Shown piece by piece: positions 1-64,000 of a stretch of 64,000 nt of DNA (positions are counted from its first letter, which is position 1; each line of letters begins with the position of its first letter). The notes beneath the pieces were generated by a model that had not been told where the DNA came from, searched no databases, and worked only from the letters and a program-made list of their open reading frames with translations. The stretch is from Pontibacter akesuensis (GTDB lineage: Bacteria > Bacteroidota > Bacteroidia > Cytophagales > Hymenobacteraceae): the NCBI RefSeq assembly GCF_001611675.1, contig NZ_CP014766.1:1240001-1304000 (forward strand), read 5' to 3'. The position numbers and the translations under genes are program-made.

Positions 1-399
1 TCCGAAAGCAGCTTGGTACACCGAGATGCCCAGCAAGGCCAATACCTGCGGATTATACTTGTGCACCTTCTCCACCAGTTGCTTTCCTCCCTTTCTCAGC
101 TCCGCTATACTTAGGTCGGCGGCGGCTACGGTGGCCCGGTCTACCACATTCGTAATGCCGAACCCCAACGGCAACAACTCCTGTTGCTCTTCGGGCTTGA
201 ACAGCCTGGGAGTGAACCCAGCGGCAAACAAGGTGGGCCAGAAGCGGTTGCCGGGCCGCGCAAAATTATACGTAACTACCGCCGTGTACACGCTTGGGTT
301 GATGCCACAGAACAGCACCTTTAGGTTCGGGGCAATCACGTCAGGCACCGTACGACCAACGGCTGCCGCTAACTCCACTTTTGTAGGCTTGTGCACCAT
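1..399 (-). CDS. mug: G/U mismatch-specific uracil-DNA glycosylase, partial (C-terminus beyond the left edge)
   Basis: This gene reads leftward from an ATG at 399 and runs off the window, giving 133 residues; the family is usually about 170. Residues 31-36 (CGINPS) match the catalytic GINPG loop of Mug/TDG enzymes, in which the Asn (N34 here) activates water. FARPGNRFWPTL (47-58), GITNVVDR (81-88) and the LGISVYQAAF segment near the end are also typical. Known family role: removal of uracil or thymine from G mismatches and of ethenocytosine in base-excision repair. The identification is clear; only the last third is unseen. Overlapping open frames on the plus strand are shadows. Confidence 0.9.
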   Translation of the reverse strand, partial: MVHKPTKVELAAAVGRTVPDVIAPNLKVLFCGINPSVYTAVVTYNFARPGNRFWPTLFAAGFTPRLFKPEEQQELLPLGFGITNVVDRATVAAADLSIAELRKGGKQLVEKVHKYNPQVLALLGISVYQAAFG

Positions 400-740
400 A
401 ATAAGTATCTTTCATCTTGCTCTTTATACGTAGCCAACAGCCGCCTTGCAAGTACAGGGTGCATACCTGAAAGCACTTGCAAACAGCAGGCTTTAGAGAA
501 CCTCACCCCCTTTCCCTGCTAACGGTAGCTGCTTGCTTTACCCAATCCCAAACTGATTACAGCAGGGATGTACCTACACGCTTAAAACAACAATTTTTTA
601 CACCCTCTTTCACGGCACATTGAACATGGATTAGCAACCGCTAACCATATAATCATATTTAATATTTGTTTACAAATAATCAACTCATAAATTTTAACAT
701 TGATTTTTAAAGCAATTCCTGAAGCTTAACACTAAACATT
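400..740. other. Intergenic stretch between divergent mug and the TQGYWKNH lipoprotein gene
   Basis: This 341-base stretch has no credible gene. The left half is GC-rich and contains ACCTCACCCCCTTTCCCTG at about 504-522, which resembles the CCCTCACC-type dispersed repeats seen near 59.4 kb. The right half (about 590-735) is very AT-rich, as expected for promoters of the two divergent genes. A small palindrome ATTTGT-TT-ACAAAT lies at 664-677, about 65 bases before the ATG at 741, and could be an operator. No clear TAnnTTTG promoter was found. Confidence 0.45.
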
Positions 741-1901
741 ATGAGAACACGGTTATTTAAAACATGTACGGCAGCTGCCTGTATCGCTTTATTGTATGGT
801 TGTACCCCGGACAATGAGGAAATGGCGGATTTCGAAAAAATTAATAGAGCACAGGCAGCCATACTTGAGCCAGGATGCGAAATGGTTACGTTTGACCATG
901 TGGTAACCGGGACAAACGGCTTTGTAACAGCCGTTATGAGCAGCCCGGGGTCAGAACAGATCATGGTGCATGCCTATCAGAGAACAGCGAGCGGCTCCTA
1001 CCGCACAAACCTGAATGTTGCGAACATATTTGATTCCAGCCAGGATTGGTCGCAGCATCTACACGATATGCAGGTTGTGGATATTTTAACGCCGCACCAG
1101 GACTTTGGCGGAGGCGGCGTTGGAGCTGGCGGAGCGAGAGGTAGCGCTTATGCTAATGATAGTGACCTGGGTGACATGATGATCATTAACCGTTTTGACG
1201 AAGCGAACAAGCCTTACGACAATAACAGCGGCGGCATGATAAGCTTTGATTTCTCATCTATGGGAACAGTGACCATGAGCTCCATTACCGTGCTCGATGT
1301 TGACAGTTATGAGGGTGCGTCCAAGATAGAGCTCTTTGGCGCAAACGGAAACCTGCTAAGTGTGGTACCCGTCCAAATAAGCGAAAGCAACGGCAAGCAA
1401 ATCGTAGACCTTGGCAATACTGCAGGTGTAGCAAGAATGGTTGTTCACCTTGGTCCTGACGTAACTGGCGCTTCTACTGGTTCCGGAGCCGTGGACAACA
1501 TCGTGTTCTGCCGTCCGCCTCAGGAATATGGCTGTACTTACACTCAGGGCTACTGGAAAAACCACGCTACTGGCAAAAAGGCTGATGCAGCCTGGAACGG
1601 AATGCATGATGACCAATTCTACCAGAGCGGAAGCACCTACCTGCAAGTGCTGAACACAGCCCCTAAAGGAGGAAACGCTTACTACATTTTAGCACATCAG
1701 TTTATTGCGGCTAAATTGAACATGGTAAATGCTTCGTCAACGCCTGAGGTAACAGCGGCTTTTAACAGCGCAGAGGCTTATTTCTCAACTGCTACGCCTG
1801 CTAACCCTTATGGTGCTGCAAGCAGAGCAGACCTGATCAGATGGGCGGGTATACTGGCCGATTACAACGAAGGAAGAGTTGGCCCAGGCCATTGCGACTA
1901 A
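741..1901 (+). CDS. Secreted lipoprotein with C-terminal TQGYWKNH domain, function unknown
   Basis: The 386-residue product begins with a lipoprotein signal ending LLYGC (Cys21), so it is probably anchored at the cell envelope. Residues 45-255 look like a beta-sandwich with a glycine-rich loop (DFGGGGVGAGGARG, about 121-134) and a segment like those of surface adhesion or carbohydrate-binding modules. From about residue 264 the sequence CTYTQGYWKNH starts a second domain, rich in Trp, Tyr and His and ending in GPGHCD. I recall this motif from exported proteins of unknown function in several phyla. The gene is alone and is followed by a strong hairpin. Function is not assignable; a surface or matrix role is an inference. 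Confidence 0.8.
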   Translation: MRTRLFKTCTAAACIALLYGCTPDNEEMADFEKINRAQAAILEPGCEMVTFDHVVTGTNGFVTAVMSSPGSEQIMVHAYQRTASGSYRTNLNVANIFDSSQDWSQHLHDMQVVDILTPHQDFGGGGVGAGGARGSAYANDSDLGDMMIINRFDEANKPYDNNSGGMISFDFSSMGTVTMSSITVLDVDSYEGASKIELFGANGNLLSVVPVQISESNGKQIVDLGNTAGVARMVVHLGPDVTGASTGSGAVDNIVFCRPPQEYGCTYTQGYWKNHATGKKADAAWNGMHDDQFYQSGSTYLQVLNTAPKGGNAYYILAHQFIAAKLNMVNASSTPEVTAAFNSAEAYFSTATPANPYGAASRADLIRWAGILADYNEGRVGPGHCD

Positions 1902-1930
1902 GCAGATTAAGAACCTATAGTTCCTTACAC

Positions 1931-1968
1931 CATACGCCGTTGCCAGCTAGTCCTGGCAACGGCGTATG
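1931..1968 (+). terminator. Strong hairpin after the TQGYWKNH lipoprotein gene
   Basis: A perfect 16-bp stem (CATACGCCGTTGCCAG and its complement) closes a 6-base loop, CTAGTC. It starts 29 bases after the stop codon and is followed by AATTTTA. This fits an intrinsic terminator with a weak U tract. Confidence 0.75.
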
Positions 1969-6259: not shown

Positions 6260-6449
6260 GCATGTTGTAAAGAGGGTACTGGTAATAAACTATAAGTGGG
6301 TTTGATGGATACTAAGCCAGTGCATACTGTAATTTAAGCCTAGTAAATGAAGCAGGAAATCTACCACAAATAAACCGTGCATGCACAGATAAGTTTAACA
6401 CCTGCCCCTGCACAACGGCCATACTTGTGCCTGTAAGTATGGTAGCTAC

Positions 6450-11370: not shown

Positions 11371-11373
11371 GTT

Positions 11374-17959: not shown

Positions 17960-18137
17960 GAGTTACTTTATACTTGTCAGTTTTCCACTAACGCATGAAT
18001 GGGCATACGTAAAAGGCTCGGTTCTGCGGTAGGGCTGCGGCATATTTATATGCAACCCGCAGCGTGTCTGCCCCTTCTGTTTTACCCGCACAAAGTTTTG
18101 CAGCGCTGCGCAGCGGGCTCTACCGGTGCGGGAACTG

Positions 18138-18175
18138 GCTAGCAAGTATAGGAGCCCATGTTTATACTTGCTAGC
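18138..18175. terminator. 13-bp perfect inverted repeat downstream of the acylase gene
   Basis: GCTAGCAAGTATA and its exact complement enclose a 12-base spacer. It lies 57 bases beyond the stop of the leftward acylase gene, so a terminator is possible, although no T tract follows. Both arms carry the recurring AAGTATA word. Confidence 0.4.
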
Positions 18176-21964: not shown

Positions 21965-22331
21965 TGGAGATGCAGGGATTCGAACCCTGGTCCAGACAAG
22001 GAAATTATCGGGCTTTCTACATGCTTAGGTTCATTCAGATTGTCGGGAGCTTGCAAGTATAAACCAAACTTATGCGCACTCCTTAGATGCTTTATTTCGC
22101 TTGTGCACCGCACCCTTACACAAGCTAGTCAAACGAGTCGAAGCCTCTGATGTGCAAGCAGTTTCACGAAACCTGCACGAGACTATGGCAATTGCTTAAT
22201 ACCTAGATTAAGCAGCCATGGCGTAATTAGATTCGCCAGTTATTGTTCGAACGAATTTTTAACAGGTGGTACGTTCATCACCCGGCATGCTTACACGCAA
22301 TCTGCGCAAGCTGTCAATTCCGGTCATCCCC
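21965..22331 (-). ncRNA. ssrA: tmRNA (transfer-messenger RNA), tag (A)GESNYAMAA
   Basis: The 367-base RNA starts GGGGATGACCGGAATTGACA on the minus strand and ends GCATCTCCA. The first seven bases pair with CATCTCC to form the Ala-type acceptor stem, and the T arm is CAGGGTTCGAATCCCTG. CCA is not encoded. The mRNA part (22237 down to 22208) reads GGC GAA TCT AAT TAC GCC ATG GCT GCT TAA, giving GESNYAMAA, the Bacteroidota tag type. It rescues stalled ribosomes and marks products for proteolysis. Short plus-strand frames over it are spurious. Confidence 0.96.
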
Positions 22332-22384
22332 AATAAGTAAAAGAACGTTGTTCTTGTGTTTTTCATACTTCAAGAAGTATGCCA

Positions 22385-25186: not shown

Positions 25187-26566
25187 ATGGCCTCTGTAAA
25201 AAATGCCCGCGTGTTAGTGGTGGATGACGAGACGGACGTTCTGTTCGCCCTGAAAATGCTGCTCAAATCTGAGGTGAAACAGGTAGTGACGGAAAAGAAC
25301 CCCGACAACCTGCCCGGCCTGCTGGAGCGCGAGAAGTTCGACGCTATATTCCTGGACATGAACTTCAAGAGCGCCCTCAACACCGGCAACGAGGGCATCT
25401 TTTGGCTGCGCCAGATCCTGGAGAAGGACAGAGAAGCCACGGTTATACTTATCACCGCTTATGGCGATGTGGAACTGGCAGTGCGGTCTTTGAAAGAGGG
25501 AGCGGCCGATTTTATCGTGAAGCCCTGGCACAACGACAAGCTGCTGGAAACGCTGCATTACGCGCTGGAAGCCAGGAAACCGAAGAAAGCCGGCGCCGCG
25601 AACACATCACCTAAAAAGAACACCAGCACCACCATACTTGGCGAGTCGGATGCCATCAAAGAGGTGCTGTACAAGATAGAAAAGATTGCACCCACTGAGG
25701 CCAACGTGCTTATACTTGGCGAGAACGGCACCGGCAAAGAATTGGTGGCGCGCGCCCTGCACGAGAAGTCGTTCCGGGCAAACAAGCCGTTTGTGAGCGT
25801 GGACATGGGCGCTTTAACCGATTCGCTGTTCGAAAGCGAGCTGTTCGGCTCCAAGAAAGGCGCTTTTACTGATGCCCGCGAAGACCGCGCCGGCAGATTT
25901 GAAGCAGCTAACGGCGGCACGTTGTTCCTGGATGAGATCGGGAATATCACGCCGCCGATGCAGGCAAAGCTGCTCACGGTGCTGCAAAACCGGCAGGTAA
26001 CGCCGCTTGGCTCCAACACACCCGTGCCGGTGGACATTCGCCTGATATCGGCCACCAATGAGCCCATCTATGAACTGGCGGCACGCAACCAGTTCCGTAA
26101 AGATTTGATCTACCGCATCAATACCGTCGAAATCACGCTGCCTCCGCTGCGCCAGCGCACTGGTGATGTGGAATTGCTGGCCCGCCATTTTGCCGCGCTT
26201 TATGCCCAGAAGAACCATAAGCCTGTACCTGAATTTGCGGAGGCTACGATGCAGAAACTGAAGCAGCACAGTTGGCCCGGCAACGTGCGGGAGCTGCAGC
26301 ATGCCGTGGAACGCGCCATCATACTTGCCGAAAGCAACACGCTGCAACCCCAGGACTTCAGCTTCTCTGCCATGGAGCTGGGACCGCCAGCAGCCACGAC
26401 TGCGTATGCTTCCGCTTCAGAAAAGCCAGTGCCGCTCATCGAACTGGAGCGGGAAACCATTGTCCGGACGCTGGAGAAAAATAAGGGCAACATCTCCCGC
26501 ACCGCCAAAGAACTGGGCCTTACCCGCACCGCCCTCTACCGCCGACTGAATAAGCATGATATTTAA
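25187..26566 (+). CDS. NtrC-family sigma-54-dependent response regulator
   Basis: The start at 25187 gives 459 residues. The receiver domain has the acidic pocket at D13/D14 and phosphoacceptor D57 (IFLDMNF). An AAA+ domain follows, with Walker A GENGTGKE (178-185), the sigma-54 contact loop reading GAFTDA (225-230) instead of GAFTGA, and Walker B LFLDE (about 246-250). The C-terminal Fis-type helix-turn-helix reads GNISRTAKELGLTRTALYRRL (split here only as a motif, about 434-454). The kinase gene overlaps its end by 11 bases. It probably activates the divergent permease gene. Confidence 0.93.
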   Translation: MASVKNARVLVVDDETDVLFALKMLLKSEVKQVVTEKNPDNLPGLLEREKFDAIFLDMNFKSALNTGNEGIFWLRQILEKDREATVILITAYGDVELAVRSLKEGAADFIVKPWHNDKLLETLHYALEARKPKKAGAANTSPKKNTSTTILGESDAIKEVLYKIEKIAPTEANVLILGENGTGKELVARALHEKSFRANKPFVSVDMGALTDSLFESELFGSKKGAFTDAREDRAGRFEAANGGTLFLDEIGNITPPMQAKLLTVLQNRQVTPLGSNTPVPVDIRLISATNEPIYELAARNQFRKDLIYRINTVEITLPPLRQRTGDVELLARHFAALYAQKNHKPVPEFAEATMQKLKQHSWPGNVRELQHAVERAIILAESNTLQPQDFSFSAMELGPPAATTAYASASEKPVPLIELERETIVRTLEKNKGNISRTAKELGLTRTALYRRLNKHDI

Positions 26567-27914
26567 GCGCCTGGAACTCGGGCTATTTGTCCGGTTTATA
26601 CTTTTGCTGGGGATGATGTACCTCACGCTGCACTACCTGGTGCAGTATACCTGGCTGCAGGTGGCCTCCGGCGTGCTGGTGATGCTGGCACAAGTATGGG
26701 AACTGGCCCTGTACGTGACGCGCAGCAACAACGAGCTGGCCAAGTTCCTGCAGGCCGTGAAGCAGCGCGATTTCTCGCAGCGCTTTAACGAACACACCAC
26801 CAACAGCTCTTTGCGGCAGCTGCATGCTTCCTTCAACCTCATCAACGACACGTACCGGCAGCTGCACATCGAGAAGGAGGCGCAGTTCCTGTACATGCAA
26901 ACTATCCTGCAGTTAATCGACACCGGTATTGTAGCCGTGGACGAAGAAACGGGTGAAGTGGAGTGGGTGAATGATGCCTTTAAAAAGATTCTGGGCGTGC
27001 CCCACCTGAAAAGCATCGCGAGCCTGGATATGCGCTACCCTGCGCTGTATGAGGCACTGCAAAGTATAAAAGCCGGCGACAACACACTCCTGAAGCTAAA
27101 ACTACCAAGTGGGCAGTCGCAGTTGCTGCTAACCGCCACGGCCTTTTCGATGCAGCAACGGCCGCTGCTGCTGGTTGCTTTGAAAAATGTGAGCGCCACC
27201 GTGGATGCCACCGAAACAGAGGCCTGGCAGAAGCTGCTCCGCGTGATGACGCACGAAATAATGAATTCTGTGGCCCCCATTGCCTCACTGGCCGACTCGT
27301 TAGGGCGCCACCTGCAGCACGAGCGCGAAAAGAAGGAACAGGAGCCGGATGCAGCGCCAGACCCGGAGTTGTTGCAGGACACCGAAGAAGGTATTTCCAT
27401 CATCAAAAAGCGGAGCGAAGGACTGCTGCGCTTTGCGCACTTTTACCGCAACCTGAACAAATCGCAGCACCTGTTGCTGACTACTGTTTATGTGCAGGAG
27501 CTTTTCAACAGCATCGACGGCCTGATGCGCCCACAGCTGGAGGCGCAGGGCGTGGAACTGATCTGCAAGGTATCGCCACAGGACCTGCAACTGAACGCTG
27601 ATGTGAATTTGCTGGAACAGGTGCTCATCAACCTCCTCCTGAACGCCCGCCGTGCGGTTCAGGGGCGACCGCAGCCACAAGTGTTACTCGCAGCGCACGA
27701 GCTAAACGGCAAAACGGTAATTGAGGTGGAGGACAACGGCACCGGCATCCCTGAGGAGCTGCTGGAAAGTATTTTCATTCCGTTCTTCACCTCACACAAA
27801 GACGGCTCCGGGATCGGCCTTAGCCTGGCCAAACATATTATGCTGCTGCACAAAGGCAGCATCGATGTGGAAACCAAAGAAGGCGTAGGCACTGTATTCC
27901 GGCTGACATTTTAG
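26556..27914 (+). CDS. Sensor histidine kinase, partner of the NtrC-type regulator
   Basis: The 452-residue membrane kinase overlaps the regulator gene by 11 bases, which indicates translational coupling. Two N-terminal helices (about 9-28 and 32-53) are separated by almost no loop, so sensing is probably within or near the membrane. A HAMP-like/PAS region follows (about 60-210, IDTGIVAVDEETGEVEWVN). The phosphoacceptor is H233 in MTHEIMNSVAPI, and ATP-binding boxes are LINLLLNARRA, VEDNGTGIP and GSGIGLSLAK. The stimulus is unknown. Bacteroidota pairs next to FtsX-type permeases often answer envelope stress; that is an inference. Confidence 0.93.
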   Translation: MIFKRLELGLFVRFILLLGMMYLTLHYLVQYTWLQVASGVLVMLAQVWELALYVTRSNNELAKFLQAVKQRDFSQRFNEHTTNSSLRQLHASFNLINDTYRQLHIEKEAQFLYMQTILQLIDTGIVAVDEETGEVEWVNDAFKKILGVPHLKSIASLDMRYPALYEALQSIKAGDNTLLKLKLPSGQSQLLLTATAFSMQQRPLLLVALKNVSATVDATETEAWQKLLRVMTHEIMNSVAPIASLADSLGRHLQHEREKKEQEPDAAPDPELLQDTEEGISIIKKRSEGLLRFAHFYRNLNKSQHLLLTTVYVQELFNSIDGLMRPQLEAQGVELICKVSPQDLQLNADVNLLEQVLINLLLNARRAVQGRPQPQVLLAAHELNGKTVIEVEDNGTGIPEELLESIFIPFFTSHKDGSGIGLSLAKHIMLLHKGSIDVETKEGVGTVFRLTF

Positions 27915-28114: not shown

Positions 28115-29236
28115 ATGAGCACCTCGGGCTTAAGGCAAAACGTGACGGATATTTTAGCGACAGCGGATATTAAAATTAACGGCCCCGATCCCTGGGACCT
28201 GCAGGTGCACGACGAGCGGTTTTTTAAGCGCCTGCTCTCGGAGGGTACGCTGGGCCTGGGTGAGTCGTACATGGACGGCTGGTGGGATTGCGCCAGTATA
28301 GATGAGTTCGTGAACAAAGCCTTCCGCGCTGACCTTTACCGCCAGGCCCGCTTTGGCTGGCGCACGAAGCTGGAGGTGCTACTGGCCAAGGTAACGAACC
28401 TGCAAACCAGGCGCAAAGCGGTAGACAACATCCAGCGCCACTACGACATTGGTAACCAGCTCTACCAACTGATGCTGGACAAGCGCATGACCTATACCTG
28501 TGCCTACTGGGAAAACGCCACCACCCTGGACCAGGCACAGGAAAATAAGATGGACCTGATTTGCCGGAAGATCGGGCTGCAGGCGGGGCAGCGGGTGCTG
28601 GACATTGGCTGCGGCTGGGGCAGCTTCGCCAAGTTCGCGGCAGAAAAGTATGGCGCTGTGGTGGTGGGCGTTACGATCTCGCAAAAGCAGCTGGAACTGG
28701 GGAGGGAGATGTGCCAGGGGCTGCCCGTGGAGCTGCGTTTCCAGGATTACCGCGACGTGAACGAGAAGTTCGACCATATCGTGTCCATCGGGATGGCCGA
28801 GGCCGTGGGTTACCGCAACCTGCGCACTTACATGCAGGTGGCCAACCGCTGCCTGCACGACAACGGCTTTTTCCTGCTGCACACCATCGGTCTCAACTTT
28901 TCACGCACCTCCCCCGACCCGTTCATCGACAAGTATATTTTCCCCAACTGCCTCATTCCCTCGCTGAAGCAAATGAGCGGCGCCATGGAGAAGCTTTTCG
29001 TGGTGGAGGACCTGCATAACTTCGGCCCCTACTACGACCCTACCCTGCTGGCCTGGTTCCGCAACTTCGATCAGAACTGGGACAAGATACAGGGCGAGTA
29101 TGGCGAACGGTTTTACCGCATGTGGAAATACTACCTGCTCTCCAGCGCCGGCTCTTTCCGTTCGCGCAACAACCAGCTCTGGCAAATTGTGCTCTCCAAA
29201 AAAGGCATGCCGGGCGGTTACCAGTCTATCCGGTAG
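28115..29236 (+). CDS. cfa: Cyclopropane-fatty-acyl-phospholipid synthase
   Basis: A 373-residue SAM-dependent enzyme that adds a methylene to double bonds of membrane lipids. The N-terminal LGLGESYMDGWWDC (about 46-59), YDIGNQLY (about 110-117), CAYWENATTLDQAQ, and the SAM motif VLDIGCGWGSFAKFA (about 162-176) are all characteristic. The N-terminal domain is present, so this is the full-length type. It stands alone behind an AAGTATA-containing intergenic segment. Cyclopropane fatty acids usually raise tolerance to acid, desiccation or stationary-phase stress. Confidence 0.93.
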   Translation: MSTSGLRQNVTDILATADIKINGPDPWDLQVHDERFFKRLLSEGTLGLGESYMDGWWDCASIDEFVNKAFRADLYRQARFGWRTKLEVLLAKVTNLQTRRKAVDNIQRHYDIGNQLYQLMLDKRMTYTCAYWENATTLDQAQENKMDLICRKIGLQAGQRVLDIGCGWGSFAKFAAEKYGAVVVGVTISQKQLELGREMCQGLPVELRFQDYRDVNEKFDHIVSIGMAEAVGYRNLRTYMQVANRCLHDNGFFLLHTIGLNFSRTSPDPFIDKYIFPNCLIPSLKQMSGAMEKLFVVEDLHNFGPYYDPTLLAWFRNFDQNWDKIQGEYGERFYRMWKYYLLSSAGSFRSRNNQLWQIVLSKKGMPGGYQSIR

Positions 29237-32273: not shown

Positions 32274-34187
32274 ATGGAAAATTTTGTAGTATCAGCGCGA
32301 AAATACCGTCCGACCACATTCGACAGTGTGGTGGGGCAGCACCATATAACGAATACACTTAAAAACGCTATCAGCAGCAACCACCTGGCACAGGCATTCC
32401 TATTCTGCGGGCCGCGCGGCGTGGGCAAAACCACCTGCGCCCGTATCCTGGCCAAAACCATCAACTGCCAGAATATTACCCCGGAGATTGAGGCCTGCAA
32501 CGTGTGCGAGTCGTGCCGCAGCTTTAACTCCAACAGCTCATTTAATGTGCACGAGCTCGATGCGGCCTCCAACAACTCGGTAGAGGATATCCGTAACCTG
32601 GTGGAGCAGGTGCGCTATGCACCGCAAACGGGCAAGTACAAGATCTATATTATAGATGAGGTGCACATGCTCTCGAACCAGGCCTTCAACGCGTTTCTGA
32701 AAACGCTGGAGGAGCCGCCTTCCTATGCCATCTTTATACTGGCCACCACCGAGCGGCACAAGATCATCCCAACCATCCTTTCCCGTTGCCAGATATTCGA
32801 CTTCAACCGGATTCGGATCGAGGACATGGTGCGCCACTTGGGCTCCATCGCCACAAAGGAAAGTATAGCAGCCGAGCCGGATGCACTGCACCTGATCTCG
32901 CAGAAAGCCGACGGTGCCCTCCGCGACGCCCTGTCTATCTTCGACCAGATGGTGACGTTCTCGGGCAGCAACGTGACCTATAAGGCCACAGTTGAGAACC
33001 TGCACATCCTGGACTACGACTACTATTTCCGCCTGACGGACCACCTGCTCGCGCAGAACCTGTCGGGTTCCCTGCTTTTGTTTGATGAGATACTGAAGAA
33101 CGGGTTTGATGCCCACAACTTCCTGGTGGGCATTGGCGAGCACTTCCGCAGTTTGCTGGTGTGCAAAGACGCGCAGACGGTGCAGCTGCTGGAGGTGTCG
33201 GATAACATCAAGGCCAAGTATGCCGAGCAATCGCAGCAGGCCAGCGTGAGCTTTCTGCTGTCCGGGTTAAACCTGGTAAGCACCTGCGACATGCACTACA
33301 AGAGCAGCAAAAACCAGCGCCTGCATGTGGAACTGTGCCTGATGAAGATGGCGCACCTGAATGCCGCGCTCAGCTTTGCACAAGAAGGAGAAACAGCAAA
33401 AAAAGCTAAGGTAGCAGCGCCGGCACCCGCCGCTACCGGATCACCCGCAGGTGCCACTTCTTCGCCATCGGCAGCCAAACAACCGCAGCAGGGCGAGGTG
33501 CCGTCTGAAAAGATGCAGCCCCCGCATACCCCGGAAACAGTACCATCCGAGCGCCTGCAGCAACCAACACCCGACAGCGTGCCCTCTGAAAAGCTACAGC
33601 AGCCGCCCACGCCGCAGGAAGTAACGCCCGATGCGCATATTGCCCCGGCCACGCCGCAAACACCTCCCGGCTCAGGCCCGGAAAAGCCACGCTCAGGAGT
33701 GAACCTGCCGCCGCCGAAAAAGCTGGGTAAGCTGCCTAGCTTGAAAGATCTGCAAAACCCGCAGGCCGCCGTAGCCGAAGTGGCCGTAGCCGAGGAGGAA
33801 GAAGACGCATATGGTGTAGCCATACCTGTGGACCAGGTCCGCCTGAAGACGGTGTGGCATGCCATTCTGCGCCGTAAAAAGGCAGAGAACATGATGGAGT
33901 TCACGCTCCTGAACCGGCAGTACCACGTGAGCGACGAAAACGAAATTGTGCTGCACCTGGAGAACCACGTGATGATGGACCAGTTCACCAGCCTGCGCCC
34001 TGCCATACTTGGCGAGCTGAAGCGCGAGTTGGGCAACCGCGGCATAAAGCTGCGGGCGGAGGTTGTGGAGCTGCAGGACGAAGGGCGCAAGCTTTATACT
34101 TCGCAGGATAAATTCAACTACCTCGCCGAGAAATACCCGGTGCTCGTCGATTTAAAGCAGCGCTTTGGGCTGGATGCTGATTTTTAA
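32274..34187 (+). CDS. dnaX: DNA polymerase III subunits gamma/tau
   Basis: The 637-residue tau form is the clamp-loader ATPase that also links polymerase cores. Domain I has Walker A GPRGVGKT (46-53), a four-Cys zinc module (65, 75, 78, 81), Walker B IIDEVH, and the sensor SRCQ near 172. Domains II-III run to about 365. A Pro-rich linker follows with three copies of a VPSE(K/R)LQQP-type unit (about 407-450), then a C-terminal domain (about 515-637). A candidate -1 frameshift signal at 33385-33437 would produce a gamma form of about 378 residues. The gene is monocistronic with a promoter just upstream. Confidence 0.96.
   Translation: MENFVVSARKYRPTTFDSVVGQHHITNTLKNAISSNHLAQAFLFCGPRGVGKTTCARILAKTINCQNITPEIEACNVCESCRSFNSNSSFNVHELDAASNNSVEDIRNLVEQVRYAPQTGKYKIYIIDEVHMLSNQAFNAFLKTLEEPPSYAIFILATTERHKIIPTILSRCQIFDFNRIRIEDMVRHLGSIATKESIAAEPDALHLISQKADGALRDALSIFDQMVTFSGSNVTYKATVENLHILDYDYYFRLTDHLLAQNLSGSLLLFDEILKNGFDAHNFLVGIGEHFRSLLVCKDAQTVQLLEVSDNIKAKYAEQSQQASVSFLLSGLNLVSTCDMHYKSSKNQRLHVELCLMKMAHLNAALSFAQEGETAKKAKVAAPAPAATGSPAGATSSPSAAKQPQQGEVPSEKMQPPHTPETVPSERLQQPTPDSVPSEKLQQPPTPQEVTPDAHIAPATPQTPPGSGPEKPRSGVNLPPPKKLGKLPSLKDLQNPQAAVAEVAVAEEEEDAYGVAIPVDQVRLKTVWHAILRRKKAENMMEFTLLNRQYHVSDENEIVLHLENHVMMDQFTSLRPAILGELKRELGNRGIKLRAEVVELQDEGRKLYTSQDKFNYLAEKYPVLVDLKQRFGLDADF
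33385..33437 (+). promoter_or_regulatory. Candidate programmed -1 frameshift signal in dnaX
   Basis: In order: an internal Shine-Dalgarno AAGGAG (33385-33390); seven bases; the slippery run of seven A's (33398-33404), phased A AAA AAA; a 5-base spacer; and a hairpin (33410-33437). The stem is GGTAGC/GCTACC, an A-C mismatch, then GCG/CGC, with an 8-base loop. After a -1 slip the ribosome reads AGC then TAA at 33407-33409. The arrangement parallels E. coli dnaX. Function is inferred; the elements are seen. Confidence 0.75.
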
Positions 34188-34234: not shown

Positions 34235-37195
34235 ATGGCTAGTAAAAGAGGTTCATCTCTGTTGCTGCTTGCGTTGGGCCTTACGTTCACGCAATGTAAA
34301 AACGAAACTTATCAAACGCAGTCTTCCCCGGATGCGCCCGCCGCAACCGCCACAGCTCCTGCCCAAAAGGAGTACAAGTATGAAACTGCACCCAACGATC
34401 CGCTGAATGCCCGCATCTATACCCTGGACAATGGCCTGAAAGTATACCTGTCGGATTATGAGGAGGCGCCGCGCATTCAGACCTACATTGCTGTTCGGGC
34501 GGGCAGCAAAAACGACCCGGCCGATGCCACTGGCCTGGCCCACTACCTGGAGCACATGGTGTTTAAGGGTACCACGGAACTGGGCACAGCCGATTGGCAG
34601 AAAGAGCAGGAGGAGCTGGCAAAAATCGAGGCGCTCTACGAGAAGTATAGAAGCACTCAGGACGAGGCTGCCCGCAAGCGCATCTACGCCCAGATTGACT
34701 CTGTTTCCGGCGTTGCCGCCACTTATGCCATCGCCAACGAATATGACAAGCTACTGACGGCCCTCGGCGCAAAAGGCACTAACGCCTATACCTGGGTAGA
34801 CCAGACGGTGTACACCAACGACATCCCGAGCAACCAACTGGAGCGCTGGCTGGAACTGGAAGCTGACCGTTTCCAGGAAATGGTACCGCGCCTGTTCCAC
34901 ACCGAGCTGGAGGCCGTGTACGAAGAGAAAAACCGCACCCTCGATAGCGATGGCCGCAAAGTGGCAGAGGTCATCAACACTGAGTTGTTCCCGACGCACC
35001 AGTACGGCACTCAGACAACGATCGGAACAGTGGAGCACCTGAAGAACCCGTCGATCACCGCCATCAAGAATTACTTTGATAAGTATTATGTGCCGAACAA
35101 CATGGCCATTGCACTGTCCGGCGACATTGACTTTGACCAGACCATCCGCCTGATCGACAAGTTCTGGGGAGGAATCAACCAGGAGCCGGTGCCGAACTTT
35201 ACCGTAGCACAGGAGCAGCCAATCCAGAAGCCGATTGTGCGTGAGGTGCTGGGCCCGGATGCAGAGAACGTATCCCTGGCCTACCGCACGCCGGGTATCA
35301 ATACCCGCGAAGCTCTGGTGGTGCAGATGATCAGCCAACTGCTATATAACGGTGCGGCCGGCCTGATCGACCTGAACCTGAACCAGCAGCAGAAGGTGCT
35401 GCAGTCGTACGCCTACGACACGCCAATGAAGGACTATGGCACGTTCCGCATGACGGGTATGCCGCGCCAGGGACAGTCGCTGAACCAGGTGCGCGACCTG
35501 CTAATCGCTCAGCTCGACATGATCAAGAAGGGGCAGTTTGATGAGAAACTCATGCAGGCCGTGGTGAACAACGACAAGATCAACACCATGAAAGCCTACG
35601 AAGACAACGGCAACCGCGCCGACGCCTTTGTAACCGCCTTCATCTATGATATTCCGTGGCAGCAGTACGTGAGCCGCCCGAACGAATATGCCAGCATCAC
35701 TAAACAAGAGGTAGTAGATGTGGCGAACAAGTATTTCAACAACAACTACGTGCTGGTGTACAAGCGCAACGGCAAAGACCCGAACGCCCAGAAAGTAGAG
35801 AAGCCGCAAATTACGCCTGTAGCCGTAAACCGCGATGCGCAGTCTGATTACTATAAGGCTTTTATGGCGAAGGAAGTGGAGCCGCTGCAGCCCGTATTCA
35901 TCGACTACAGCAAAGACCTGGTGGAGACGAAACTGAAGCAGGACATTCCGCTCATCTACACCAAGAACAAGGACAACGGCCTGTTCCAACTGTACTACAT
36001 CCTGGACATGGGCACCAACAACGACCAGAAGCTGGGTATGGCGGTAAACTACCTCAAGTACCTGGGCACCGACAAGTATACCGCAGAGGAGCTGCAGAAG
36101 CAGTTTTACCAGCTGGGCACTTCATTTGACGTGTTCTCGTCAGGCGACCAGGTGTATGTGAGCTTAACTGGCCTGGATGAAAACTTCGAGCAGGGCCTTA
36201 GTTTGTTTGAAAGTGTACTGGCCAACGCCAAGCCAGATCAGAAAGCCTTGAACGACATGGTAGCCGGCACACTGAAGGCACGCCAGGACGCCAAGAAAAA
36301 CAAAGGCGTGATTCTGCAGCAGGCCATGGTGAACTTTGCCAAGTATGGCCCGAAGAACCCGTTCAACACGGTGCTGAGCGAGAAAGAGCTGAAAGCCGTG
36401 AAGCCGCAGGAACTGGTGAGCATCATCAAGAGCATCCCAAGCTACGAGCACCGCGTGCTCTACTATGGTCCACGTGAAACAGATAACCTGATCGCAGCGC
36501 TGAACGCCGGGCACAACGTTCCGGCTAAGCTGAAGCCTGTTCCGGCAGAGAAGGTTTACGCCGAGATCGACTTTAAGGAGCCAACAGTGTATTGGGCAGA
36601 TTACGACATGGTGCAGGCAGAGCTGCTGTTCCTGAGCAAGTCAATTCCTTACAACAAGGATATTGTACCGGTTGTGCGCCTGTACAACGAGTACATGGGT
36701 GGCATCGTGTTCCAGGACCTGCGTGAGTCGAAGGCCCTCGCCTACTCTACCTACTCCTACTATGGTACTGCTTCCAAGAAAGACCGCTCCAATTACCTGA
36801 TGTCTTACATCGGGGCACAGGCCGACAAGTTGGAGGAGGCCATGGCCGGTATGCAGGCACTGCTGACGGAAATGCCGCTGGCGGATGCCAACTTCCAGAA
36901 TGCCCGCGCCGCGCTGCGCAACAGCATCTCTACGGAGCGCATCACCAAGTCTGGCATTCTGTTCGATTATGAGCGTGCCAAGCGCCTGGGCCTGAACTAC
37001 GACATCCGCCAGGACGTGTACCAAAGCGCCAACAGCATGACGTTTGACCAACTGAAAGAATTCCAGCAGAAGTATGTGAAGGCCCAGCCACAGGCTATAC
37101 TTGTTATCGGCTCCAAAGACCGCCTGAACTTTAAGGCACTGGAGAAGTATGGCAAAGTGAAGCAGCTGGACCTGAAGACACTGTTCGGGTACTAG
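34235..37195 (+). CDS. Full-length M16 family zinc peptidase, lipoprotein
   Basis: The 986-residue product carries both halves of an M16 enzyme in one chain, unlike the two-gene pair at 6.5-9.4 kb. A lipoprotein signal ends FTQC (Cys21). The zinc motif is H103-Y-L-E106-H107 (HYLEHMVFKGT), and the distal Glu is probably in AVYEEKNRTLD (about 227). A roughly 100-residue insertion with coiled character lies between them. The C-terminal half lacks HxxEH, as is normal. Pitrilysin-like peptidases degrade oligopeptides outside the cytoplasm. A TATATTTA promoter-like site lies 26 bases before the start. Confidence 0.92.
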   Translation: MASKRGSSLLLLALGLTFTQCKNETYQTQSSPDAPAATATAPAQKEYKYETAPNDPLNARIYTLDNGLKVYLSDYEEAPRIQTYIAVRAGSKNDPADATGLAHYLEHMVFKGTTELGTADWQKEQEELAKIEALYEKYRSTQDEAARKRIYAQIDSVSGVAATYAIANEYDKLLTALGAKGTNAYTWVDQTVYTNDIPSNQLERWLELEADRFQEMVPRLFHTELEAVYEEKNRTLDSDGRKVAEVINTELFPTHQYGTQTTIGTVEHLKNPSITAIKNYFDKYYVPNNMAIALSGDIDFDQTIRLIDKFWGGINQEPVPNFTVAQEQPIQKPIVREVLGPDAENVSLAYRTPGINTREALVVQMISQLLYNGAAGLIDLNLNQQQKVLQSYAYDTPMKDYGTFRMTGMPRQGQSLNQVRDLLIAQLDMIKKGQFDEKLMQAVVNNDKINTMKAYEDNGNRADAFVTAFIYDIPWQQYVSRPNEYASITKQEVVDVANKYFNNNYVLVYKRNGKDPNAQKVEKPQITPVAVNRDAQSDYYKAFMAKEVEPLQPVFIDYSKDLVETKLKQDIPLIYTKNKDNGLFQLYYILDMGTNNDQKLGMAVNYLKYLGTDKYTAEELQKQFYQLGTSFDVFSSGDQVYVSLTGLDENFEQGLSLFESVLANAKPDQKALNDMVAGTLKARQDAKKNKGVILQQAMVNFAKYGPKNPFNTVLSEKELKAVKPQELVSIIKSIPSYEHRVLYYGPRETDNLIAALNAGHNVPAKLKPVPAEKVYAEIDFKEPTVYWADYDMVQAELLFLSKSIPYNKDIVPVVRLYNEYMGGIVFQDLRESKALAYSTYSYYGTASKKDRSNYLMSYIGAQADKLEEAMAGMQALLTEMPLADANFQNARAALRNSISTERITKSGILFDYERAKRLGLNYDIRQDVYQSANSMTFDQLKEFQQKYVKAQPQAILVIGSKDRLNFKALEKYGKVKQLDLKTLFGY

Positions 37196-37236: not shown

Positions 37237-37271
37237 AAAAGCGGCAGCCAAAGTATGGCTGCCGCTTTTTT
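37237..37271 (+). terminator. Intrinsic terminator of the large M16 gene
   Basis: A 13-bp stem (AAAAGCGGCAGCC and complement) closes the loop AAAGTAT and is followed by T residues. It lies 42 bases after the M16 stop. The loop and right arm together contain the AAGTATG word. Confidence 0.85.
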
Positions 37272-43848: not shown

Positions 43849-43990
43849 CGGCCACAGTATCGTCCTAAAGCCCGCTTGTTGCAACTCAATTGATGCAACC
43901 AAGTATGGCGCAGTTATTTAATGCTCGACCACACATGGTAAGTATATTTGAGCCAGGTACGGCTTAGTTTACAGAGTTGAAAGCAAACAG

Positions 43991-51814: not shown

Positions 51815-52222
51815 ATGAAGCTGTACGTACCACTCCTCGCCCTGCTTATACTTACTACACTTGCCGGCTTTACCTTCAGCAGCCAGCAAAACCATTATTC
51901 TATTGTGGGGCAGTGGAAACTGGTGGACATGCAGATCGGCAACAACAAAAAGGCTAAAGCCAGGAGCGGCATTAAGAAGTCTATTGCCCAAAACGAGATG
52001 CGGCTGGTGTTTGAGGAGTCGGGGCAGTTTATGATGGCCCTGGATGCAGATGGCAGAGGCCTGCGCGGTGGCTACTACTACGACACCACCAGCCAGGTGC
52101 TAAGTATAACGTACGGCGCCCACACCGATACCGCCCTGGTTTCGTGGGAGGGCGCAAACCGCATGGTGCACTCCACCACAGACGGCCAGACCAAAACCAT
52201 TATGGAGCGGGTAACAGAGTAG
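51815..52222 (+). CDS. Exported lipocalin-like protein
   Basis: A 135-residue protein with an N-terminal signal or anchor (about 1-22) and a beta-barrel start SIVGQWKLVDMQIG, then FEESGQFMMALDADG and RGGYYYDTTSQVLSITY, typical of lipocalin-like domains of Bacteroidota. Unlike the protein at 21.1-21.9 kb it has a single domain. Ligand unknown. It is divergent from the SpoIIAA-like gene and followed by the next membrane protein gene after about 115 bases. Confidence 0.72.
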   Translation: MKLYVPLLALLILTTLAGFTFSSQQNHYSIVGQWKLVDMQIGNNKKAKARSGIKKSIAQNEMRLVFEESGQFMMALDADGRGLRGGYYYDTTSQVLSITYGAHTDTALVSWEGANRMVHSTTDGQTKTIMERVTE

Positions 52223-54289: not shown

Positions 54290-54439
54290 TCTTTTTTCTT
54301 GCTGATTGGGTGCCGCTTCTATTGGATGGCAAATAAGTATAATACTGAACCCAAAGTAACTATTCTTCTTATATTAGCCTAAGTAAATCCTTACGCGTGC
54401 GCAGCAGACCCGTTGCCCGTAAGCCACATACTTTCACTT

Positions 54440-55291: not shown

Positions 55292-56223
55292 TGATTGGTG
55301 TAAATGTGTTTAATCTTTTAGAGTGGTGTGTTTTGCTGCGGCTATATTTAGCGGCTGTTCAACTATCCCAAGCCATACTTCACATATTGGCGCAAGTCTT
55401 TAGACTTGTGTCTTGCTTTGATATTGATCTTGCAACTCGACTGGTTTGAAAAGCCATACTTGTTAGGCGGCGGCTATACTTGTTGCAGCCATCTTGCATA
55501 GCGGCTATACTTGCTACACTACCTGGCGCAAGCGTCCGCTTGTGCCGTCGATTGCTCCTGCTATACTTGCATAGTTTCTGTTAGCCGCATCTCCGAACAG
55601 GCTATCTTTCCTTGCTCCTGTTCACCCTACAGCTCCCAAATACCTACTGTTCCACTTCCTGCTTTGGAGCGCTCACGGCTGGGGTAGGGGCCCTATATAA
55701 GCAGGGCCCCGTCTTGGGGGTAGGGGCCCTCGATAAGGGTATCGCGCTGGGACCTTTTCTTTGCTCACTTCGCGTTGCAATCCCGCTCTCGCGGGACCGA
55801 AAAACTCCAAAGGCGCTCTTTTCGAGGGCCCCTACCCCCACCCAAGGACTGGAATCAGTTTAAATGGCCACTGCTAACGGAGCTTCGGCCAAGTCCCCCT
55901 TTGAAGGGGGTAGGGGGATGTTTCAGTACTGCTGATAATTCCCCTCCTCGGAGGGGTTAAGGGGTGGGTTCACCAGAATATCCTAAACCACAGCGCTTAT
56001 ACCTGAGGATCGGCAGTTACAAACTGCCCCTCCTTGGACAAGGAGGGGTTGGGGGTGGTTTGATACAGTACAGCAGCAGCACTCCCAACCCTGTTTTTAG
56101 GGGAGGGCTGGGGAGGGGTTACTCCTGCTGATTCACTACTCTTCACTTCGTCGACCTACAGACCATGTTCGTCTAATAAATGTTGCAACATCCGCTAAAC
56201 TGAGCACCCTCCATCCTGCTGCT
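55292..56223. repeat. Repeat-rich intergenic island
   Basis: The longest non-coding stretch in the window (932 bases). It contains five CATACTT/TATACTT words (55.37-55.57 kb); two related hairpins of GGCGCAAG type (55389-55412 and 55525-55546); a 126-base element with 19-bp inverted ends (55715-55733 and 55822-55840); and, at 55.88-56.12 kb, four variants of CCCCTCCT...AGGAGGGG-type palindromes. Open frames inside are repeat-derived. No gene, RNA or transposase is recognised. Confidence 0.75.
55715..55840. repeat. Composite element bounded by 19-bp perfect inverted repeats
   Basis: The left arm TGGGGGTAGGGGCCCTCGA (55715-55733) pairs exactly with 55822-55840. The 88-base interior contains a smaller palindrome, TCCCGCTCTCGCGGGA. 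A partial direct copy of the left arm (GGGTAGGGGCCCT) lies just before it at about 55681-55693. Confidence 0.7.
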
Positions 56224-56902: not shown

Positions 56903-56949
56903 TAAATCTATACTTCAAATCTTAACCGATCTACCTTAACCACAACATA

Positions 56950-61857: not shown

Positions 61858-61934
61858 AAGGTACAATTATACTTATTTATCTTTTATAATAGCAGCTTTT
61901 GCCTAATTTTGTTCAGACCGCCCACTATTAACCC

Positions 61935-62321
61935 ATGAGACTTAAACACTTTAGCCTGACCTTTGGGCAACAGGTGCTAAAGGCACTGGCCGACGAATCC
62001 CGGCTTCGCATCCTCCACCTGATCCTGCACAACAAAGAGATGTGCACCTCTGACCTGGAGCAGGTGCTCGACTTTACGCAAACAAAAACATCGCGCCACC
62101 TCTCCTACCTGCGCAACGCCGGGCTGGTCATCAACCGCAAAACCGACCAGTGGGTGTACTATGCCATAAAAGACGAGGCAGCTGACTTTGTGACGCAGAT
62201 ACTCAACTACATGGAGCGCGATACTGTGCTGCAAAAAGACAGGGAAGTATACAACATCCTCTACTCCAACCGGGAGCTGGCGGCGAACAAACAGCAAACC
62301 CGCCGCTGGCCGGCCCCGTAA
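61935..62321 (+). CDS. ArsR-family transcriptional regulator
   Basis: A 128-residue winged-helix repressor. The block LADESRLRILHLILHN, then CTSDLEQVLDFTQTKTSRHLSYLRNAGLV (helix-turn-helix, about 38-66) and the wing RKTDQWVYYAI are standard for ArsR/SmtB proteins. The single Cys (C36, MCTSDLEQ) is not the usual CxCxxC metal site, so it may sense something other than metal or act constitutively. It is divergent from the carboxypeptidase-regulatory-like gene, which may be a target. Confidence 0.9.
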   Translation: MRLKHFSLTFGQQVLKALADESRLRILHLILHNKEMCTSDLEQVLDFTQTKTSRHLSYLRNAGLVINRKTDQWVYYAIKDEAADFVTQILNYMERDTVLQKDREVYNILYSNRELAANKQQTRRWPAP

Positions 62322-62448: not shown

Positions 62449-63150
62449 ATGAAAACATATACCCACATCCTCTTCGACCTAGACCACACCCTTTGGGACT
62501 TTGAGAAGAACTCCGAAGAGACGCTTTATACTTTATACGAGCAGTTCGGGCTTGGCAAGCACGGCAGGTTCGACTGCAACTCCTTTTACAACAAGTATAA
62601 ATTTATCAACACCCGCCTCTGGGACCTTTATAATAAAGGAAAGATCACCCAGAAAGAGCTGCGCGAAGACCGCTTCACCAAAACGCTTATAGGCCTGGGG
62701 CTGGCAGAGCATGAGCTGCCGCAGGGCATATCGGAGGCCTACACTTCCATGTGCCCCACCAAGACAGCCGTGTTTCCGCATACCTACGAGGTGCTGGAGT
62801 ACCTGCAGCCCAAGTATGGCCTGCACATCGTAACCAACGGCTTTAAGGAGGTGCAGCACATCAAAATGAGCTCATCTAAGCTACACGACTATTTTAAGGA
62901 GGTGATTACCTCGGAGTGCTGCGGCTACAAAAAGCCTGACCGCCGCATGTTTGAGCACCTGCTGGATAAGCTGGAGATAAAGCCGGAAAACTGCCTGATG
63001 ATCGGCGACAACTACGAGTGCGATGTGGAGGGTGCCCGTGCCGCCGGCATCGACCAGGTATACTTTAACCCGGAAAAGATAAAGGCCCGGAAGCACCCTC
63101 GGCCCACGCACGAAATCAGTTGCCTTAGTGAGCTGAAGCAGCTGCTGTAG
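62449..63150 (+). CDS. yjjG: YjjG-family HAD hydrolase, noncanonical pyrimidine nucleotidase
   Basis: The start at 62449 gives 233 residues. The HAD motifs are D10-L-D12-H-T (nucleophile and acid/base), motif II in VTNGFKEVQ (about 125-133), Lys in YKKPDRRMF (about 163), and DNYECDVEGA (motif IV, about 186-195). YjjG-type enzymes dephosphorylate modified pyrimidine nucleotides, keeping them out of DNA. Overall substrate specificity is inferred from family resemblance. The start codon follows AAGGCAA, a poor ribosome site, as is usual here. Confidence 0.88.
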   Translation: MKTYTHILFDLDHTLWDFEKNSEETLYTLYEQFGLGKHGRFDCNSFYNKYKFINTRLWDLYNKGKITQKELREDRFTKTLIGLGLAEHELPQGISEAYTSMCPTKTAVFPHTYEVLEYLQPKYGLHIVTNGFKEVQHIKMSSSKLHDYFKEVITSECCGYKKPDRRMFEHLLDKLEIKPENCLMIGDNYECDVEGARAAGIDQVYFNPEKIKARKHPRPTHEISCLSELKQLL

Positions 63151-63234
63151 TGCCTGTTCTTTACCCGGCAACAAGTATAAACCAGCGTTATGAGAGGCCA
63201 GTCCCCTGATGCGGCAAAATCAAAATATAAGCCT

Positions 63235-63242
63235 TACCTTTG
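63235..63242 (+). promoter_or_regulatory. TAnnTTTG promoter element of pruA
   Basis: TACCTTTG matches the Bacteroidota -7 box, 64 bases before the pruA ATG at 63307. A leader of about 58 bases is implied. No clear -33 box. Confidence 0.5.
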
Positions 63243-63306
63243 TTAAGGAGCCCTCCTAAGAGGTAACTGAGTTAGAAAATCATTCTGAATCTGTAACTAT
63301 AAAAAA

Positions 63307-64000
63307 ATGGCAACCGGATTTTTCAAAGTACCAACACCTGTTAACGAGCCTGTAAAATCTTACGCCCCGGGCTCACCGGAGCGCGAGGAATTGCAGCGTA
63401 CCTATAAAGCGCTGAAGTCGCAGCAACTGGATGTACCCATGTACATTGGCGGCGACAAAGTATACACTGATAACAAGCAGCCGATGCTGCAGCCACACGA
63501 CCACCAGCACCTGCTGGGCCATTTCAGCTATGGCGACGCGTCGCACGTGGAACAAGCGATAAACGCGGCTTTGGCTGCGCACGAGGCCTGGGCAAACATG
63601 CGCTGGGAGCACCGCGCCAGCATTTTCCTGAAAGCTGCCGAACTGCTGGCTGGCCCCTGGAGAGCCAGACTGAACGCCGCCACCATGCTGGGCCAGTCAA
63701 AGAACGCCTACCAGGCCGAGATTGACTCTGCCTGCGAGCTGATCGACTTCCTGCGCTTTAACGTGCAGTACATGACAGAAATTTACCAGATGCAGCCGGA
63801 ATCTTCTCCGGGCGTTTGGAACCGCATGGAGCACCGCCCGCTGGAAGGTTTTGTTTTTGCGCTGACGCCGTTCAATTTCACAGCCATTGCCGGTAACCTG
63901 CCTGCTTCTGCCGCTATGATGGGTAACGTGGTGGTGTGGAAGCCAGCCAACACTCAGGTGTATGCTGCGCACATGATCATGGAGCTGTTCCGCGAGGCTG
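63307..64000 (+). CDS. pruA: 1-pyrroline-5-carboxylate dehydrogenase, partial (C-terminus beyond right edge)
   Basis: The first 231 residues are present; the family is about 540. It oxidises glutamate semialdehyde to glutamate with NAD+ in proline breakdown. N-terminal MATGFFKVPTPVNEPVKSYAPGS and the middle NRMEHRPLEGFVFALTPFNFTAIAGNLP, with the NAD-binding block VVVWKPANTQV, match the Bacteroidota and eukaryote-like P5CDH. The start has a poor ribosome site but is the only well-placed ATG. The catalytic Cys and Glu are not in the window. A TACCTTTG promoter lies upstream. Confidence 0.95.
   Translation, partial: MATGFFKVPTPVNEPVKSYAPGSPEREELQRTYKALKSQQLDVPMYIGGDKVYTDNKQPMLQPHDHQHLLGHFSYGDASHVEQAINAALAAHEAWANMRWEHRASIFLKAAELLAGPWRARLNAATMLGQSKNAYQAEIDSACELIDFLRFNVQYMTEIYQMQPESSPGVWNRMEHRPLEGFVFALTPFNFTAIAGNLPASAAMMGNVVVWKPANTQVYAAHMIMELFREA

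Follow-up and report, generated by a model that had tools for sequence, protein, structure and literature searches.

Why does a single seven-nucleotide word recur about once every 0.5 kb in a bacterial genome? This question is raised by a stretch of 64,000 nt from Pontibacter akesuensis, the whole of which was analyzed and is called the window below. On its two strands AAGTATR is present 126 times (78 AAGTATA and 48 AAGTATG; 61 copies on the plus strand and 65 on the minus strand), versus about 16 copies expected at even base composition, and AAGTATY is present 18 times (11 AAGTATT and 7 AAGTATC). An earlier note, made from the letters of the window, had estimated these numbers at about 120 and 20, and all six sites that it quoted hold the word, with an offset of at most one base. 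Judged from comparisons of genome sequences, we consider it probable that AAGTATR is the core of an iterated Pontibacter word that forms dialects, and that this word is likely a DNA uptake sequence, which would tag the DNA of the cell's own kind.

The excess was also found in the whole source genome (G000; 4.83 Mb in two contigs). In all whole-genome tallies the reversed word served as the control count; AAGTATR was counted 9,225 times versus 1,064 for the control, and AAGTATA 6,108 times versus 405. When expectations were computed from dinucleotides over 464 kb of this genome, AAGTATA occurred 556 times versus 32.9 expected (17-fold), AAGTATG 292 times versus 47.5, AAGTATAA 296 times versus 9.5, and AAGTATAAA 179 times versus 2.8 (64-fold). 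At 232 intergenic sites the base 3' of the core was A or G, with T in 4%, and the next base was A or C in 74%. The sites were spread fairly evenly, with 1.47 to 2.4 AAGTATR per kb in 19 of the 20 chromosome stretches examined. The 20-kb stretch G000:C1:3420001-3440000 has only 0.75 per kb and is possibly an acquired island.

For the analysis of codon phases, genes were called with a greedy procedure on chromosomal stretches of the source genome. The 349 genes contained 595 words, but only 104.7 +/- 7.1 were obtained after synonymous codon shuffling (30 shuffles), which rules out an effect of codon or amino acid usage. All six phases were over-represented, by 3.6- to 14-fold. In-frame AAG TAT (Lys-Tyr) was the largest phase class, with 175 of the 595 coding sites, yet it had the smallest excess. 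The density was 3.94 sites per kb in intergenic regions versus 1.54 within genes, and intergenic AAGTATA was counted 178 times versus 13.2 expected. The earlier note had claimed that the word occurs in all codon phases and that codon choice cannot explain it, and both claims are borne out. It had also allowed that AAGTATR might be no more frequent genome-wide than composition and codons predict; the genome-wide counts and the shuffling contradict this.

Leading-type and lagging-type strands were assigned by the GC skew of each stretch. In a 444-kb sample, 434 words lay on the leading-type strand and 409 on the lagging-type strand, and thus no replication-strand bias was present. Because of this absence, a Chi-like word, one of the analogues listed in the earlier note, was rejected.

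Dialects and the evolution of sites

The named records that share the M16 peptidase gene of the window at 79 to 90% identity are Pontibacter species. Forty-one genomes of this genus were counted whole, each dialect word against its reversed word. The AAGTATA dialect was found in 18 genomes, at 8.8 (G021) to 38.5 (G013) times the reversed word, and the AGGTATA dialect in ten, at 17.7 (G010) to 38.4 (G009) times. Three genomes (G017, G044, G051) use AACTATA, with 12,640 to 13,168 copies versus 626 to 833 (15- to 21-fold). AACTATA and AAGTATA occur together in G040 and G046. The word is weak in G050 (AGGTATA, 3,132 versus 545) and G006 (AAGTATA, 2,905 versus 723), and six genomes (G001, G023, G024, G039, G041, G047) are wordless; in these the ratio for AAGTATA or AGGTATA lay between 1.3 and 3.9. 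The dialect words share the frame A[AG][GC]TATAR. Longer words were AACTATAG in the AACTATA dialect (294 versus 7.0 expected in 180 kb of G044) and AGGTATAG in the AGGTATA dialect (230 versus 3.0 in 200 kb of G009 and G014); in both samples the base 3' of the core was T in 4%. Words of other dialects had raised ratios: AGGTATA stood at 3.3 to 6.7 in AAGTATA genomes, and AAGTATA stood at 2.4 to 2.8 where AGGTATA is the dialect word and at 4.3 to 4.5 in G017, G044, and G051. They may be relics. In G044, the palindrome AACTATAGTT, which places two words within ten bases, had 104 both-strand counts (52 places) versus 0.5 expected.

In the stretches of the named records around the M16 gene, AAGTATA was found in P. 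cellulosilyticus, P. anaerobius, P. aydingkolensis, P. oryzae, P. vulgaris, and P. ruber. In the same set of stretches, strain E15-1 had a weak word, and no dialect word was among the top words of P. pamirensis, P. diazotrophicus, and P. ummariensis. On the M16 protein tree, the five labels of 39 genomes required 8 changes versus 19.3 after shuffling (0 of 200 shuffles were as low). The AACTATA genomes formed one branch nested among the AAGTATA genomes, and the two-dialect genomes G040 and G046 were placed just outside it, with weaker support. The wordless lineages were scattered, and the wordless label alone was not clustered (105 of 500 shuffles were as low).

Beyond the genus, 118 genomes of the order were counted, with the source genome as the sole member of its genus. 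AAGTATA was strong only in the source genome; the runner-up, G087, had 2.2 times as many copies as of the reversed word. For another genus of the same family, represented by eight genomes, the ratios were 1.1 to 1.7. In 13 genomes of other families, each represented by a single stretch of at most 20 kb, the dialect words did not exceed 3.6 times the expectation. Other 8-mers stood out in a few of these 13 genomes (G026, G027, G029, and G030), and dense local repeats were seen in 20 kb each of G027 and G026 (GAGTACTC, 218 both-strand counts; ACCGGTAT, 22, and GCAGTCCA, 24). A 4- to 12-fold excess was seen for words built around TATA or TAT in about 23 kb each of a Chitinophaga metagenome-assembled genome (CGGTATA, CGCTATA, ATATACC), of Ohtaekwangia (CTATATA), and of one further stretch (TACTATA, AGTATAG). 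Such words in other Bacteroidota are possible further word systems.

The earlier note had advised a check of conservation among relatives. This was quantified for ordered genome pairs over an orthologous 20-kb region. Between AAGTATA genomes, with an overall identity of 81%, AAGTATA was identical in place at 565 of 952 aligned sites, versus 52 of 192 for five control words of similar make-up (8/17, 2/29, 6/16, 34/85, and 2/45). Within their own dialects, AGGTATA was kept at 537 of 766 and AACTATA at 114 of 195 aligned sites. Towards wordless genomes, AAGTATA was kept at 20 of 384 (same clade) and 35 of 316 sites, and AGGTATA at 36 of 200. Thus, the word is conserved in place within a dialect. 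Between AAGTATA genomes, the conservation of the core columns was 0.79 to 0.89 versus about 0.77 for the flanks, and between AGGTATA genomes the core was also better kept than the flanks. From AAGTATA to wordless genomes the core was worse kept (0.63 to 0.77 versus about 0.74 for the flanks). For AAGTATA in AGGTATA genomes, i.e. in a foreign dialect, the values were about 0.84 for the core and 0.79 for the flanks (n = 134).

The comparison between dialects also indicated how one word replaced another. In six AGGTATA genomes, 82 of 304 AAGTATA sites of G005, G049, G018, and G045 read AGGTATA in place; therefore, the dialect was switched partly in place. When the AAGTATA sites of seven genomes were compared with AACTATA genomes, 84 of 397 were still AAGTATA and only 25 were AACTATA; therefore, most positions of the AACTATA dialect are new. 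The one-mismatch neighbours of AAGTATA occurred at 0.59 to 4.0 times the expectation, with 19 of 21 above 1, and AAGTATG among them reached 6.2. That these neighbours are not strongly depleted argues against enzymatic conversion of one variant into the word. Directed mutation of near-miss words is disfavoured because the neighbours of AAGTATA are mostly over-represented, though about half of the AAGTATG neighbours are under-represented. Insertion of a mobile 7-mer is likewise disfavoured: in a first pairwise comparison, an indel was involved in no more than 66 of the 1,169 site alignments.

Presumed plasmids and transformation genes

The second contigs of G000 and G020 are presumed plasmids, of which 40 of 116 kb (two stretches) and 20 of 74 kb (one stretch), respectively, were examined. 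They contained 15 AAGTATR versus 7.1 expected (2.1-fold) in G000 and 15 versus 5.1 (3.0-fold) in G020, whereas the enrichment on the respective chromosomes was 10.9-fold and 15.6-fold. Among the six proteins from the first stretch of the G000 contig are a transposase and an AbiEii-family toxin-antitoxin protein.

The comEC, dprA, and comM families were found in all 41 Pontibacter genomes. The search for competence genes that the earlier note had recommended was therefore successful, with the addition that the genes are broken in some genomes. None of the three was retained as the gene that determines specificity, because wordless genomes have them as well. ComM acts in the transformation of other bacteria. 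The comM family (yifB, PF13541) had an open frame of at least 512 codons in 35 genomes and a short one in six (G000, G011, G019, G045, G021, G008). In G011, G019, and G045 the gene is interrupted at codon 222-223 and unrelated DNA follows the break, and in the source genome it is interrupted at codon 355 and followed by a different, unrelated insert. An integrase-type-domain gene adjoins the break in G011 and G019. With one codon region shared by three species and another position used in the source genome, comM is an insertion target. Mobile elements and islands insert into comM in Acinetobacter, and the Pontibacter insertions resemble these islands. G021 comM has one in-frame stop codon and G008 comM a frame change; in both genomes comEC and dprA are broken, too. 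A frame change in comEC was found in G017.

The word density was then compared between five AAGTATA genomes with broken and twelve with intact comM, using phylogenetic generalized least squares (PGLS) on the M16 tree. The one AAGTATA genome without a close relative of the anchor gene (G048), the two-dialect genomes G040 and G046, and the weak G006 were left out. In the orthologous 20-kb region, AAGTATR was present at 1.20 to 2.36 per kb in the genomes with broken comM and at 2.41 to 3.77 per kb in those with intact comM. The five were the lowest of the 17 both by this region and by whole-genome AAGTATA, and PGLS yielded p values of 7e-5 to 3e-4 for region and whole genome alike. With the ratio to the reversed word, the p values were 0.009 to 0.02 and the groups overlapped. 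G048, with an open comM, had 1.47 per kb in the whole genome, just above the broken ones. Genomes with broken comM kept 26 to 59% of the sites of intact genomes, whereas 64 to 70% of their own sites were kept in intact genomes; therefore, the genomes with broken comM lost sites. Pairs with intact comM kept 60% of each other's sites.

One candidate receptor, the DUF5689 family from a screen in Riemerella, had been named before the test. It was rejected, because it was present in 18 of the 41 genomes, including three wordless ones, and did not follow the word. In the three loci that were read, a DUF5689 gene of about 430 residues adjoins a gene that looks SusD-like by eye, and two of the three have phospholipase-D-like or phosphatase-like neighbours (also by eye). 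The locus is perhaps a nucleic-acid scavenging operon.

Paired sites and features of the window

Paired words within 30 bases were counted with palindromes set aside by hand, because the null model omitted spacings below 7, whereas the observed counts included the 3-base spacing of the palindromes. Head-to-head pairs numbered 13 versus 9.2 expected in the source genome, 19 versus 13.8 in other AAGTATR species, 2 versus 3.2 for AACTATA, and 16 versus 5.4 for AGGTATA, where some represent one site in several species. Except for AGGTATA, little head-to-head excess was thus left, and pairs in the same direction also exceeded expectation. For these two reasons, pairing in terminators was not retained as a clear feature. 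All sites of the window, together with pairs, clusters, and genes, are compiled in Table 1.

Table 1. AAGTATR sites and other features of the window. In the site lists, the first base on the plus strand is followed by the strand of AAGTATR.
Feature	Position	Strand
AAGTATR sites	54- 106- 860- 2177+ 3272+ 4528+ 6420- 6435+ 7708- 9316- 9526- 11255- 11820+ 11959+ 12536+ 12978-	
AAGTATR sites	14051- 14834+ 14967+ 17314- 17400- 17969- 18144+ 18163- 19530- 19848- 19946+ 20629- 20959- 21064- 21831+ 22055+	
AAGTATR sites	22364- 22375+ 22399- 22463+ 22514+ 24889+ 24978+ 25080+ 25444- 25633- 25711- 26320- 26597- 26692+ 27062+ 27922-	
AAGTATR sites	28070+ 28646+ 28931+ 29255- 30881- 31061- 32861+ 33216+ 34004- 34095- 34376+ 34440+ 34643+ 36074+ 36341+ 37070+	
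AAGTATR sites	37096- 37145+ 37251+ 37388+ 38119- 38838- 38966+ 39094- 39907- 39914- 42316+ 42510- 42770+ 43465- 43684- 43901+	
AAGTATR sites	43940+ 44814+ 45141+ 45186+ 45343+ 45568+ 45839- 45877+ 46104+ 46250+ 47522+ 47801+ 48017+ 48122+ 50482- 50552-	
AAGTATR sites	51480- 51677- 51847- 52102+ 52887- 53341- 54335+ 54427- 54612- 54871+ 54979- 55374- 55455- 55475- 55506- 55562-	
AAGTATR sites	56272- 56909- 58177+ 59284- 59615- 61868- 62245+ 62330- 62527- 62593+ 62812+ 63059- 63173+ 63458+	
AAGTATG, codons AAG TAT GGC in open reading frame (ORF) 28115-29236	28646..28652	+
AAGTATG, codons ..C ATA CTT in ORF 25106-26566	25633..25639	-
AAGTATA within histidine-kinase-like gene, ORF 26556-27914	27062..27068	+
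AAGTATA close to the end of dnaX-like gene, ORF 32274-34187	34095..34101	-
AAGTATA within tmRNA gene (21962-22331, minus strand, Rfam match)	22055..22061	+
AAGTATG in loop of GC-rich hairpin followed by T (terminator-like), 3' of M16 peptidase gene	37251..37257	+
Inverted pair CATACTTC-AA-GAAGTATG	22364..22381	both
Inverted pair CAAGTATA...TATACTTG	18144..18169	both
Four same-strand words inside 114 bases	55455..55568	-
M16 peptidase gene; anchor for the orthologous 20-kb regions, not part of the word system	34235..37195	+

Competing explanations and known systems

Most likely, the word is held by donor-biased recombination in transformation. Incoming DNA would be recognized by its words through a putative DNA-binding protein of the cell surface or periplasm, and word-bearing fragments would enter through ComEC, pass to DprA, and recombine with the help of ComM. 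A copy with the word would replace a wordless copy more often than the reverse, which would result in accumulation and upkeep. A shift in the preference of the reader protein at word positions 2-3 would give rise to a new dialect, and loss of transformation would lead to decay of the word. With less assurance, but still leaning towards it, we propose from the genome comparisons that Pontibacter has a pilus-free DNA self-recognition with at least three dialects (AAGTATAR, AACTATAR, AGGTATAR), which would have originated outside the Proteobacteria, with a putative receptor whose preference changed at word positions 2 and 3 and with mobile elements that counter it by insertion into comM, followed by decay.

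Several observations weigh against the uptake reading. No uptake or transformation experiment on Pontibacter was among the literature matches listed, and we know of none. In the 41 genomes no pilus ATPase was found, in a search that did not extend to pilins and secretins; the family search yielded short P-loop-type fragments of about 38 to 66 of 370 positions with at most 25.9 bits, two of which just passed the cut-off of 24.9 bits. No receptor was found, and the only candidate named beforehand does not follow the word. The excess of head-to-head pairs is small, and of the words that differ from AAGTATG by one base, about half fall short of expectation (lowest 0.50). Five genomes, including three from a single clade, underlie the comM link, and inclusion of the weak G006, with an open comM at about 0.6 per kb, would break the clean separation. 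Word content follows the state of comM in the 17 AAGTATA genomes, but it does not track that of the transformation genes in G008 or G017, nor in the weak pair or the six genomes without a word. The six wordless genomes and the weak G006 and G050 all keep comEC, dprA, and comM open. In G008 all three genes are broken, yet AGGTATA is at full density and no site loss is apparent (75% of the sites of others are kept, and 59% of its own are kept elsewhere), and G017, with its frame-changed comEC, keeps the full AACTATA set. Both may be recent losses of transformation genes, and uptake may be indiscriminate in the wordless species. The open genes of G006 and G050 and the small pair excess count against both the uptake reading and the pilus-free proposal. 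The three broken genes and full word set make G008 a natural case for dating word decay.

Pilus ATPases power the known uptake-word systems. Because the ATPase family search yielded only short fragments, a type IV pilus receptor for the word is unlikely. The missing ATPase counts against the known pilus-dependent systems, not against a system that works like one.

Among the alternatives, the word might bias packaging or release on the donor side, by a gene transfer agent or something similar. Recipients would then take the DNA in with comEC, dprA, and comM; com genes are used in this way by cells that receive gene transfer agents. With an identical drive but a different recognizing protein, this would also give dialects, conservation in place, sparseness on plasmids, and the comM link, but one site every 0.5 kb is far denser than a packaging start needs, and we regard this explanation as improbable. 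We give just as little credence to a HIP1-like word, held by a DNA methyltransferase plus a repair or mutation bias, with an own enzyme for each dialect. HIP1 also varies among some genomes (PMC4390886, in excerpt), and the palindrome excess of G044 and the under-represented AAGTATG neighbours are in its favour. However, AAGTATA is not palindromic in the source genome (of 554 counts, only 10 extend to AAGTATACTT), most of its near-miss words exceed expectation, and a lower word density in genomes with broken comM would not follow from methylation alone. A binding site of an abundant chromosome-organizing or repair protein (nucleoid, Chi-type, or segregation), maintained by ordinary selection, would agree with the fairly even spread. 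It appears slightly less probable still, because the word lacks the skew of Chi and segregation words, a switch of thousands of sites between sister clades would be hard to achieve by site-wise selection, and neither plasmid sparseness nor the comM link is predicted. An origin from composition, codon use, or repeats without function can practically be dismissed, because, although Lys-Tyr codons account for some of the excess, shuffling does not reproduce it, all phases are affected, intergenic sites are densest, and congeneric species such as G001 and G047 lack the word. Of the four analogues suggested in the earlier note, the uptake sequence is thus favoured by dialects, in-place conservation, plasmid sparseness, and the comM link, whereas the Chi-like and, for lack of a palindrome, the HIP1-type analogue did not hold up.

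Chi and segregation (KOPS-type) words are, like the Pontibacter word, iterated in genomes; they are strand-skewed and read by a protein, in contrast to the balanced distribution found here. Cyanobacterial HIP1 also has a very high copy number and variants among genomes, but, according to the excerpted text, it contains methyltransferase targets and is palindromic (PMC4390886), whereas AAGTATA in the source genome is not palindromic. Within the Bacteroidota, Riemerella anatipestifer is comparable: as far as the excerpt of PMC8459023 describes it, transformation requires ComEC and DprA and, for its full frequency, YifB (ComM family), whose mutants are much reduced. ComF, RecA, and four proteins that do not resemble known uptake components also take part, and for the essential proteins other than ComEC and DprA the known uptake machinery offers no homologs. 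The same excerpt mentions no uptake word, and the surface candidate DUF5689 does not track the word in Pontibacter. Neither an uptake word in Bacteroidota nor an AAGTATR motif was among the matches listed in our literature search, which did not extend to bioRxiv and most subscription papers. If the uptake reading is true, the word would provide a handle on how Bacteroidota move DNA across the outer membrane, the parts for which are largely unknown.

The uptake signal sequence of Haemophilus influenzae, AAGTGCGGT (PMC5217627, in excerpt), is similarly a short, non-palindromic word of high copy number. It differs in word, phylum, and machinery, and paired-word terminators are common there, whereas head-to-head pairs in the source genome do not clearly exceed chance. 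In Neisseriaceae, the dialects of the DNA uptake sequence differ by single bases along the phylogeny, and Simonsiella muelleri has two of them (PMC3630211, in excerpt). Thousands of copies, single-base dialects that follow the phylogeny, and genomes with two dialects, here G040 and G046, are thus shared features as far as that source goes. The Pontibacter word is found in another phylum, it is different and shorter, and with no pilus ATPase found, it is unlikely to be read by the pilin receptor ComP. Several hallmarks of uptake sequences are present, i.e. high copy number on both strands, sites within and between genes, dialects that follow the phylogeny, few sites on presumed plasmids, and com genes. 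The 41 genomes, with three dialects, mixtures, losses, and gene breaks, make an origin by donor-biased recombination and the switching of dialects testable. To our knowledge, uptake words are known only from Neisseriaceae and Pasteurellaceae, both of which are Proteobacteria that use pili; a dialect system in Bacteroidota would, if true, represent an independent origin with a different reader.

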